From assembly GCF_015265475.1 (NCBI RefSeq), contig NZ_CP054493.1, forward strand, positions 992,001-1,056,000: DNA of 64,000 bases. Reading direction: 5' to 3'. The notes under the pieces are model-generated. The model saw nothing but the letters and a program-made list of their open reading frames with translations. It had not been told where the DNA came from and did no database searches. Every line of letters begins with the position of its first letter. The first letter of the stretch is position 1. Source of the DNA: Candidatus Sulfurimonas marisnigri. GTDB lineage: Bacteria > Campylobacterota > Campylobacteria > Campylobacterales > Sulfurimonadaceae. Below are positions 32,846 through 35,146 of the stretch, piece by piece. The position numbers and the translations under genes are program-made.

Positions 32846-33991
32846 TTAGTTAATAGAAGAAATAATTCCCAGAGCTAACTGCTGAGAAGCTAATAGAGAG
32901 ATCTGTGTTGTTGCAATATTTGCACTTTGTAACCCTTGGCTCAGAAGAATCTGATCTGCACTAAAGCCAATATTGTCTGACATCATAAGGATCTTATCTG
33001 CCATTTCCAAGATAGAGTTTGACATAGACCCAATATCTGCAGAGATATTTAACATACTATTCATAGAGTCAAGAAGTACGCTGTCTCTAGTAAAAACTTC
33101 TAAGACCGAGATAGAACCATTATAACCTTCCATGACTGCACCAATAGATGTCATAATAACACTAAGGTTGGTTAATGAAGTTAATGTGCCTGAATCTATA
33201 TACATTGTGTTGTTACTTGTATCTGAATCTATTGTTGCTTGAAAATCTTGTACTTTTACTAAATAATTCTCTATATCTATTTTTACATCTTCAAGTTTTG
33301 AAGCCATTGTCCAACGTGTAAATCCTACTAAGACCATCTTTGCAACTAGGATATTTCCGTCTGTAACAAGTGAGTCCAGGCTAAGGTCATAGCTTGCTGT
33401 TTCTGCTACAGATACAAGTGAAAGTATATTTGTCTGTGTCGTTAAGATACTGTTTTGCGTTAAAACAAGATTTTCACTTTGAATGACTTGTGTCTCAAGA
33501 ATACGGTCTGCCATCAAACCGATATTGTCCGCCATGATTAAGATATTATCTGCCATCTCACCGATACGATCAGCCATCTCACCAATGTCACTTGAAAGTT
33601 GTAAGCTTGCTCTGATACCATCACCAAGTGTAAATGCATCAGTAGTGGGTGCAAGTAGAGCAATATCATTTGATAATAAAAATGATTGATTAGATATAGC
33701 AGCTACATTAATAAAAAGTCCTTGTGCTAACATCAAAGTCTCATCATCAAGTGTAATTGGCCCTGTAAAACCATTGTTTGTGACAATAATAGCGTCAATA
33801 ATTGCCTGCGCTTCTTTGTTAAGCGAAATGAGTGGTGCACACATAGTCTCATTAGTAATCACCACATTAGAAATACTACTGTTTAACTCAGTCATAGAAT
33901 TATTGATATTGATTAGATCTGTTTTAAGATCTGCCTGAAGAAATGATGCCGATAAGGCAAGAAGTGCAATCAGTTTAATATATATTTTCAT
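32846..33991 (-). CDS. Secreted MAD-heptad repeat protein A (unknown family)
   Basis: The 381-residue protein has a signal peptide (to LQA, 18-20) and no recognised domain. It contains two copies of a helical module (about residues 129-190 and 310-372) built from seven-residue units such as IGEMADR, IGEMADN, ILIMADN, IGLMADR, then a Q/S/T-rich tail (TQVIQSENL ... TTQ). Ile and Met occupy the a and d positions of a heptad and Asp is fixed, which suggests amphipathic helices forming a coiled-coil or fibre outside the inner membrane. It follows paralogue B by nine bases with a shared terminator. No function can be assigned from sequence. Confidence 0.7.
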   Translation of the reverse strand: MKIYIKLIALLALSASFLQADLKTDLININNSMTELNSSISNVVITNETMCAPLISLNKEAQAIIDAIIVTNNGFTGPITLDDETLMLAQGLFINVAAISNQSFLLSNDIALLAPTTDAFTLGDGIRASLQLSSDIGEMADRIGEMADNILIMADNIGLMADRILETQVIQSENLVLTQNSILTTQTNILSLVSVAETASYDLSLDSLVTDGNILVAKMVLVGFTRWTMASKLEDVKIDIENYLVKVQDFQATIDSDTSNNTMYIDSGTLTSLTNLSVIMTSIGAVMEGYNGSISVLEVFTRDSVLLDSMNSMLNISADIGSMSNSILEMADKILMMSDNIGFSADQILLSQGLQSANIATTQISLLASQQLALGIISSIN

Positions 33992-34000
33992 CTTTACTCC

Positions 34001-35146
34001 CTATAGTCCAAAGTTTTTAATCACAGTAATCATAATTGACTGTGATGATAATAGTGATGATTCTGTAAGTGCAACATTTGTCATCTGAATGTTTTGAGTC
34101 TCTGCAATACGATCTGCCATCAGACCGATGTTGTCAGCCATAATAAAGATTTTATCTGCCATTTGCATAATGCGATCCGACATAACACCAATATTTTTTG
34201 TCAGTTGTAACATAGTATCTGTAGCATCTGAAAGAATCACAGTGTCAGTTAACGGTGCAATCTGTTCAATTGTTCCTGAATACGCTTCCAAAGAAGCCCC
34301 TAAACTCACATAGATTCTTGAAAGATCACCTAACATTGTCAATGTGTCAGCATTGACATAATGACTCATATGTGCACTGTTTGTTACCACTGTGTCTAAA
34401 AGTGCTGTTGTCCTCTCTAAAAGAGCAACTGTTTGTGCTTCAATACCTGTCAGTTCAACTTCCATATTTAAACTGTTTAAACTAACCGCTTGCATAGCAA
34501 TAGAAAGTACATCTACATCATCTACTATCTGACCTAAAGTAAGGTTATAAGCAATCGTAGAAAGTGAATCACTTAAAAGTATCATATTCTGCTGCGTGAT
34601 CAAGATCGAACTTTGTGTTACAGCAAGGTTTTGACTTTGGATTACTTGTGTTGTTATGATCCTGTCTGCCATCAAGCCGATATTATCTGCCATGATTAAA
34701 ATACGATCTGCCATCTCCAAGATACGATCTGCCATGGCACCTATATCTTGAGAAAGTTGTAAGATAGCGTCAACTCCTGCGCTATACTCAAAAAGTTCAC
34801 CCGTAGCTGTAATATCTGTTAACTCCATTGACAGACTTATTGAGTGTATACTCATATTTTGAACTAAATATGATAAAGATGTAAGCGCGTCCATATCTAC
34901 GTCTGTAGCAGAGAAATCTGTCATGCTTGTTGTCGCGTTAGCAACACTTTGTGTAAAGTCTTCAATTGACTGGTTTAATACCCCCATTTCCATACAAGCA
35001 GCATCTTGGTGGAAAGTAAAGTTTACCAATTCATCTTTTAGATTGTTCCCCTCAACGACTAAGTCTTGCAAGTCTGTGTGAATATCTGCGCGTAATGTTA
35101 TACTTGATAAAAATAAGACAACTAACAATTTAATTATATTTTTCAT
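34001..35146 (-). CDS. Secreted MAD-heptad repeat protein B (paralogue of A)
   Basis: This product is also 381 residues, with a signal peptide (to LRA, 18-20) and the same architecture: one Cys near residue 51, first module about 126-190 (IGAMADR, ILEMADR, ILIMADN, IGLMADR) and second module about 308-372 (IGVMSDR, IMQMADK, IFIMADN, IGLMADR). The modules are more regular than in A. Equal length and shared repeats show a tandem gene duplication on top of an internal one. It is the first gene of the pair; a 14-bp inverted repeat lies in its upstream region. Confidence 0.7.
   Translation of the reverse strand: MKNIIKLLVVLFLSSITLRADIHTDLQDLVVEGNNLKDELVNFTFHQDAACMEMGVLNQSIEDFTQSVANATTSMTDFSATDVDMDALTSLSYLVQNMSIHSISLSMELTDITATGELFEYSAGVDAILQLSQDIGAMADRILEMADRILIMADNIGLMADRIITTQVIQSQNLAVTQSSILITQQNMILLSDSLSTIAYNLTLGQIVDDVDVLSIAMQAVSLNSLNMEVELTGIEAQTVALLERTTALLDTVVTNSAHMSHYVNADTLTMLGDLSRIYVSLGASLEAYSGTIEQIAPLTDTVILSDATDTMLQLTKNIGVMSDRIMQMADKIFIMADNIGLMADRIAETQNIQMTNVALTESSLLSSQSIMITVIKNFGL

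Follow-up and report, generated by a model that had tools for sequence, protein, structure and literature searches.

Two adjacent genes, A and B, are arranged in tandem on the minus strand of the window, the whole stretch of 64,000 nucleotides of Candidatus Sulfurimonas marisnigri DNA that was analysed. Gene A, the first of the pair, occupies positions 34001..35146 and gene B, the second, positions 32846..33991, with the start of B 9 nt past the stop of A. As stated in a preliminary description of this DNA, both are open reading frames (ORFs) for exported proteins of 381 aa, and each protein is composed of two modules. By inspection, residues 1-20 form a signal-peptide-like N terminus in A (35087..35146, minus strand; MKNIIKLLVVLFLSSITLRA) and in B (33932..33991, minus strand; MKIYIKLIALLALSASFLQA), and N termini of the same kind can be recognised by inspection in the orthologue rows shown of alignment A1. 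A GGAG stretch resembling a ribosome-binding site can be read directly past the stop of A, before the start codon of B. A terminator-like hairpin of 10 pairs with a T-rich tail (32807..32830, minus strand) is found after B; it is a consensus match only, and three terminator-like sites were found in the region against 1.1 expected. Because of the 9-nt spacing, the GGAG stretch and the hairpin past B, the sequence looks like that of a two-gene transcription unit, in which A and B would be co-transcribed.

The boundaries of A module 1 (34559..35086), A module 2 (34004..34558) and B module 2 (32849..33400) were taken from alignment A1 and the modules were aligned in alignment A4, B module 1 being located at 33401..33931; all four are on the minus strand. 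Each module carries one MAD core on the same strand, detected with the core profile A3, which has these four cores among its own rows: A core 1 (34571..34777, E 1.1e-32), A core 2 (34019..34225, E 2.7e-30), B core 1 (33413..33619, E 1.3e-32) and B core 2, which is degenerate (32861..33067, E 1.8e-26). Throughout the 2.49-Mb genome, A and B are the sole two matches of A used as query at E up to 10, and the core profile finds four cores, all within A and B. The two proteins share 37% identity. Their mature forms have GRAVY values of +0.37 (A) and +0.32 (B) and charges of -30 and -36, respectively; in our own judgement, made without a comparison set, they are apolar for acidic soluble proteins.

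MAD heptads, conserved residues and selection

Pairs of M[AS][DN] triplets exactly 7 residues apart number six in A and five in B, the maximum being one such pair in 20,000 residue shuffles of each protein. The run IGAMADR-ILEMADR-ILIMADN-IGLMADR, pointed out in the preliminary description, is block 1 of A. The heptads had been called strict in both blocks of both proteins, which overstates the regularity of block 2 of B, a degenerate stretch in which one exact MAD is left (SMSNSILEMADKILMMSDNIGFSADQ). The Q/S/T-rich stretch reported to follow the heptads is real, and part of it is strongly conserved (TQxxQxxN...).

In module numbering, the a and d positions 109, 112, 116, 119, 123, 126, 130, 133, 137, 140 and 144 are 83-100% apolar; from residue 109 to 133 they are 97-100% hydrophobic, and d105 reaches only 47%. 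T147, Q148, Q151 and N154 are conserved at 96-100%. According to the heptad phase, Met (position d) faces inward and Asp outward, and some outward residues are conserved as well (R122 in 93%, D128 in 92%, D135 in 97% and N136 in 100%), others being weaker (D121 56%, position 129 39%). Binding of metals, one of the functions first considered, does not appear to be supported: by this phase the Met residues point inward and no cluster of His or Cys stands beside them; His makes up 1.4% of A and is absent in B, and each mature protein contains one Cys. According to the predicted models, helix 2 of module 1 begins at this residue, Cys51 (codons 34994..34996 in A and 33839..33841 in B, minus strand). 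A Cys is aligned to it in 44/44 A/B proteins, and in 43 of them it is the sole Cys past residue 30.

Conservation is unevenly distributed along the modules. Mean pairwise identity among the 44 proteins is 34% over helices 1-3, 80% in the MAD region and 53% at the end of helix 5 for module 1, the values for module 2 being 34%, 63% and 45%, respectively. The family is under purifying selection, with dN/dS of 0.08-0.18 in 10 of 13 comparisons; in three of these ten dS exceeds 1.7 and is a rough value, and the remaining three comparisons were saturated in dS. Six single-module proteins (L004-L006 and L010-L012) are shorter by one heptad, exactly seven residues.

Distribution, pairing and history of the family

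No Pfam or NCBIfam model scored above its cut-off for A or B, and no family convincingly matched the modules among the matches listed (25 of 62 families). The NCBIfam models coaB (17.4 of 217 bits) and TrmY (18.9 of 183 bits) were rejected as implausible and far under their cut-offs. Membership of a known family by sequence was also rejected, since every match obtained from Pfam, NCBIfam and the PDB sequences was either under threshold or of low complexity; those of low complexity include antiparallel coiled coils of designed proteins, starting at E 1.1e-8. The DUF7162 (PF23721) profile matched 40 of the 96 modules at E up to 1, with 23.3 bits for A and 12.1 for B against a cut-off of 27, and its best stretch covers 22 residues. 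Literature term searches retrieved no description of the A/B family. Judged by sequence, A and B belong to a real and coherent family that is unnamed in the libraries searched, in line with the initial suspicion that it might be undescribed.

A scan of genome contigs with A yielded 29 loci, 21 of them full-length (L015-L035) and eight single-module (L036-L043); the scan was seeded with six short peptides taken from A and is biased towards relatives in which these are conserved. The 21 A orthologues show 41-72% identity and can be aligned over the full 381 aa, and B follows A at all 21 loci. When the window, G962 and four genomes belonging to one sister genus (G237, G330, G347 and G400) are added, A and B are found side by side in 27/27 full-length cases; in G347, G400 and G962 the pair was deduced from the presence of two ORFs, each about 400 aa long and containing two cores. 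An unpaired ORF of this size with two full cores does not occur among the matches listed by the core-profile genome searches.

Other Campylobacterota had been named as the place to look for the repeat. It does occur there but is not confined to them, relatives being present in records named Campylobacterota, Desulfobacterota and Gammaproteobacteria. With the core profile A3 at E up to 1e-4, matches were obtained in 19/397 genomes drawn from the phylum of the window (five with the pair), in 8/274 of the class draw around Thioalkalivibrio (one with the pair, Thioalkalivibrio itself), in 21/257 of the class of L028 (11 with the pair) and in 4/245 of the phylum draw around L038, where the open frames have 218-261 aa and one core. 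A set of 60 genomes gave 12 matches including the window's own; the other 11 were weaker (E 4.9e-16 to 2.2e-4, open frames of 158-696 aa). No relative was detected in viral contigs searched with A and the core profile or in plasmids and phages searched with one single-module relative, and phage, plasmid or viral cargo was therefore rejected; the viral structure library gave no match at E up to 0.001.

The MAD core is also part of larger proteins. Some genomes of the window's phylum encode giant proteins of 2399 and 3673 aa that repeat it, one of which (L086) adjoins an ORF with Ig/cadherin/RTX adhesin-type domains, and L088 is a 699-aa core-bearing protein with a Tat/lipobox-like start (by inspection). 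Both observations suggest that the motif is located outside the cytoplasm in other proteins too. In comparison with giant RTX/LapA-type adhesins, A and B have no adhesin domains, and the 3673-aa protein scored 19 bits against LapA, under the cut-off of 27.

In a tree of the 96 modules, A1, B1, A2, B2 and the single modules form five groups with the least possible changes (4). A is one clade (100/100) and so is B (100/100), the B1 group being weakly supported (76/58). Since first modules group with first modules and second modules with second ones, this tree shows, for the sequences compared, that the module was duplicated first and the gene later, spread coming last; duplication at the two levels had already been proposed in the preliminary description. 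The distance matrices of A and B are correlated (r 0.91). A single origin per phylum was rejected, at marginal significance, because neither Campylobacterota (AU p 0.041) nor Gammaproteobacteria (AU p 0.049) form one clade in the concatenated A+B tree. L020-L022 form a group (99/98) with the rows of Geobacteraceae and Desulfuromonadaceae. Among the 13 rows that carry the label Desulfobacterota in this tree are MAGs with no name more precise than 'Proteobacteria', 'Pseudomonadota' or 'Deltaproteobacteria'; L019 is one of them, and six others (L017, L018, L020, L022, L023 and L029) were assigned to the class of L028.

The pair has apparently been passed between distantly related bacteria, and the insertion site is evidence more direct than the phylum trees. 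In the window, 3.07 kb separate pdxJ from a gene for a DsbH-like thioredoxin. This stretch (32658..35728, no strand assigned), which is absent from the same junction in relatives, contains A, B and a 115-aa remnant of a histidine-kinase ATPase (35237..35584, plus strand; HATPase_c E 2.9e-16), which is 47% identical to an L137 ORF of 404 aa across 95 aa. pdxJ was found in 38/41 genomes, and the stretch upstream of it was read in nine of the same genus: five have only 10-129 bp between pdxJ and the DsbH-like gene, four have other genes, and the A/B pair is at this junction in none of the nine. The two nearest relatives, L015 and L016 ('Sulfurovum'), keep the pair at other sites, beside a DNA polymerase III alpha-type gene and beside an OMP decarboxylase gene, respectively. 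In the sister genus (L087), the pair stands beside genes that, judged by inspection, resemble an efflux operon and a nitrogenase cluster. Within flanks of up to 6 kb, no neighbour is common to distant loci, the largest cluster spanning 5 of the 29. The nearest upstream ORF has the opposite orientation in 13/19 loci and the nearest downstream ORF in 14/20, as judged from mechanical ORF calls. The pair represents a bacterial family without a name, which has a conserved site and a predicted structure that can be tested, and which is present as a two-gene unit at unrelated places in several phyla.

Predicted fold of the modules

The model of B module 1 obtained from a 96-row alignment (pLDDT 86.9, pTM 0.83; pLDDT across all five models 79.6-86.9) is a compact bundle of five helices, comprising residues 2-22, 31-53, 63-96, 99-133 and 141-176. 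In this model the MAD heptads correspond to helix 4, a turn near NIGLM (module residues 134-140) and helix 5. The preliminary description had envisaged envelope fibres. A fibre or continuous coiled coil was discarded, since in the monomer module model the heptads are split by the turn into a helix-turn-helix within the bundle, with no long coiled coil. The full-length model of A, built from 44 rows, is all helical (pLDDT 69.9, pTM 0.47), with pLDDT of 48-67 over residues 121-180.

Comparison of the module model with the PDB by VIA-align placed eight fungal entries at the head of the list (Z 14.5-16.5, rmsd 2.1-2.5 A over 142-150 aa): 5j5k (Z 16.5), 5j5l (16.4), 5ecf (15.1), 6j6f (15.0), 5e7x (14.8), 5fb7 (14.7), 6zpp (14.5) and 5csd (14.5). 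Five of them are Mp1p LBD1/LBD2 and two are AFMP4p, these seven being fatty-acid-binding domains, and one is g7941. Designed proteins come next (Z 13.1 and 12.8), flagellar chaperones being found lower (Z 9.7-10.0). The full-length A model matches single Mp1p-type domains at Z 12.9-15.2 and rmsd 2.3-3.7 A; module 1 (model residues 18-185) is paired with 5j5k (Z 15.2, 2.4 A, 146 aa) and module 2 (model residues 196-371) with Mp1p LBD2 (5fb7_A, Z 13.6, 2.6 A, 148 aa), and a designed protein ranks third (Z 14.8, rmsd 26 A). In Foldseek searches with the module, the designed protein 9mg8_B was first (5.8e-3), with 6zpp at 8.2e-3 (TM 0.62) and 5j5l at 8.6e-3 (TM 0.66), TM being given by target length; with the full-length A model, both hits under 0.001 were designed proteins and 5j5l had an E of 0.1. 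Resemblance of the A/B modules to the Mp1p/AFMP4p fold is held as probable, and not as certain, because helical bundles reach Z of about 14 by chance (the typical best for five helical models).

The predicted five-helix bundle covers 92-95% of the single fungal domains of Mp1p LBD, AFMP4p and g7941. However, the A/B modules are bacterial, are only 8-15% identical to these domains and have no profile match with them, and the MAD heptads, the two-gene pair and the invariant Cys are features of A/B that the Mp1p-type domains do not share. These fungal domains are assigned to the HsbA family (PF12296). In the window's genome, PF12296 matched nothing at E up to 10, and it exceeded its cut-off in 0/19 genomes (three single-module genomes and 16 of the 23 labelled pair carriers), none of its weak matches lying at an A/B or single-module locus; a module profile run against PDB sequences did not recover the Mp1p-type chains. 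HsbA, a small secreted protein presumably of the same fold, differs from A and B in that these have no PF12296 match.

HsbA of Aspergillus oryzae, a hydrophobic surface-binding protein, adsorbs to a polyester and recruits a cutinase (PMC9394342), and Mp1p, which has two such domains and 13 single-domain homologues, binds palmitic and arachidonic acid (PMC5488042, PMC4999278). The titles of the PDB entries of the matched fungal domains also name palmitic or arachidonic acid binding. Like the predicted A/B family, the Mp1p-type proteins described there are exported and contain one or two domains. The models suggest that a fold known from fungal fatty-acid capture may exist in sediment and vent bacteria; a fold shared with fungal domains shows no function.

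Candidate functions

The explanation that we favour, tentatively and at slightly less than an even chance, is that A and B are an exported pair of five-helix bundles that capture hydrophobic molecules or coat hydrophobic surfaces. It is proposed for two reasons, the likeness to the fungal fold and the character of the mature proteins, which are highly acidic although apolar as a whole. Each protein would consist of two five-helix bundles of the general Mp1p/AFMP4p fold, acting outside the cytoplasm. Ile (a) and Met (d) would line the inner face of helix 4 and of the first half of helix 5, and the Gln/Asn/Thr stripe (TQxxQxxN) that continues on helix 5 could act as a polar clamp. A Met-lined pocket with this clamp, its residues being assigned by heptad phase, is therefore the putative binding site. 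The single invariant Cys of each protein, located in module 1 where helix 2 starts, may form a link between A and B or take part in ligand binding. Ligand binding, a surface or periplasmic location, an A-B complex and a role for the Cys are what we infer here. The pair would be a concrete candidate for the handling of insoluble hydrophobic substrates, including elemental sulfur, a question raised in the literature (PMC10045233).

None of the neighbours and co-occurring genes tested (29 loci; FadL and dsrA) supports hydrophobic capture. Within the flanks read at the 29 loci, no neighbouring gene suggests a link with lipids. FadL porins (PF03349, E up to 0.001) are present in 17/19 pair carriers (of the 23 labelled ones, G440, G442, G347 and G400 were left out) and in 17/20 same-genus genomes without the pair, one of which (G011) has a single-module relative; FadL was rejected as a lipid-uptake partner because it is equally common with and without the pair. 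Besides, the alignments point to conserved outward residues (R122, D128, D135 and N136) that a ligand pocket alone does not explain, and these would call for assembly or a partner in addition.

Assembly could also be the whole function, the MAD hairpins docking A and B into a periplasmic or surface coat with no small ligand, and this we consider possible but unlikely. In its favour, these four residues, at 92-100%, are conserved like the a/d core, and the A-B pairing is constant in the 27/27 cases; the recurrence of the core in the giant proteins, one of them beside the RTX/cadherin-type adhesin ORF, points in the same direction. However, the predicted modules are compact, and no filament-forming family was found among the matches listed (25 of 62 families) or in the PDB sequence search. 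It is still less likely that A and B bind a partner protein as a secreted adaptor or chaperone, the helix 4-5 hairpin holding, for instance, an adhesin or an outer-membrane protein. The conserved stripe on helix 5 and the flagellar chaperones among the lower fold matches (Z 9.7-10.0) are consistent with this role, but no conserved client-like neighbour was seen within the stretches read, and the nearest relatives carry the pair at different places.

A role as sulfur carrier is improbable. The apolar pocket would hold S8 or polysulfane chains, and the lone Cys would open the ring and pass sulfur to the cell. Pair carriers named to genus or family belong to sulfur-cycle taxa, and the invariant Cys at the N terminus of helix 2 would suit this chemistry. 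For acidophiles, thiols of outer-membrane proteins have been proposed to activate solid sulfur, and in Campylobacterota the way in for solid sulfur is described as not settled (PMC10045233). Against a sulfur carrier, dsrA (searched at E up to 1e-20) is not discriminating: it was found in 11/16 pair carriers tested, most of them Desulfobacterota and none Campylobacterota, and in 2/4 gammaproteobacterial carriers versus 93/274 genomes in the class draw. It is also present in 6/7 single-module genomes given. dsrA was thus rejected as a sulfur-metabolism marker of pair carriers, since it does not separate them. In addition, Cys is missing from the corresponding position of the single-module relatives L036-L043, and none of the genes next to the pair was recognised as a known sulfur gene. 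We give a similarly small chance to A and B being a secreted Cys-linked or Cys-reactive pair whose Met-lined pockets take up elemental sulfur or polysulfanes, or which coats sulfur particles. If this were true, they would be the extracellular protein that has been missing for sulfur solubilisation in several sulfur-cycle lineages, and would have spread as a cassette of two genes.

Finally, low-complexity heptad sequences without specific function, alike by convergence, are hardly credible: unrelated-looking proteins with similar runs do occur in the Thioalkalivibrio class draw (L079 and L081), but the A/B proteins are orthologous over the full 381 aa, keep an invariant Cys and invariant Gln/Asn residues, show low dN/dS (0.08-0.18) and have correlated A and B distances.

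Other proteins with MAD cores or heptads

The MAD core, the conserved heptad segment present twice in each protein of the pair, is also found in a second family of proteins of about 700 residues, encoded at loci L014, L059, L076 and L088 (7339-9438) of other genomes. The core of this family reads EEVG(I/L)MADR(I/V)LWMAVQIG(Q/V)MADRIGEMADRIVYTEQLI in the first three of these loci. The L088 protein carries a Tat/lipobox-like leader at its N terminus and had no match in a Pfam search with E values up to 0.01.

The core is repeated in two giant methionine-rich proteins, one of 3673 residues with six core matches (L085, 3468-14489) and the other of 2399 residues with five (L086, 2380-9579). 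An ORF near the latter contains Big_9, cadherin-like and RTX domains.

Among the 274 genomes drawn from the class around Thioalkalivibrio, two proteins (L079, 1441-2001; L081, 1369-1920) combine MSxNI-type heptads, which are probably convergent, with an apparent membrane anchor.

Surroundings of the pair

Divergent from the pair, and within the inserted stretch, lies a stand-alone HATPase fragment of 115 residues (window 35237-35584), which is a histidine kinase remnant. In the sister genus (L087, 1088-17763) the pair is flanked, by inspection, by RND efflux operon-like and nitrogenase cluster-like genes.

Other features of the window

At 27247-29081, a DUF3373 protein adjoins a protein of 88 residues that begins with a signal-like segment and matches nothing in Pfam, and a chemotaxis receptor gene is located close to both. 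A perfect TA dinucleotide run of 13.5 copies occupies positions 52602-52628.
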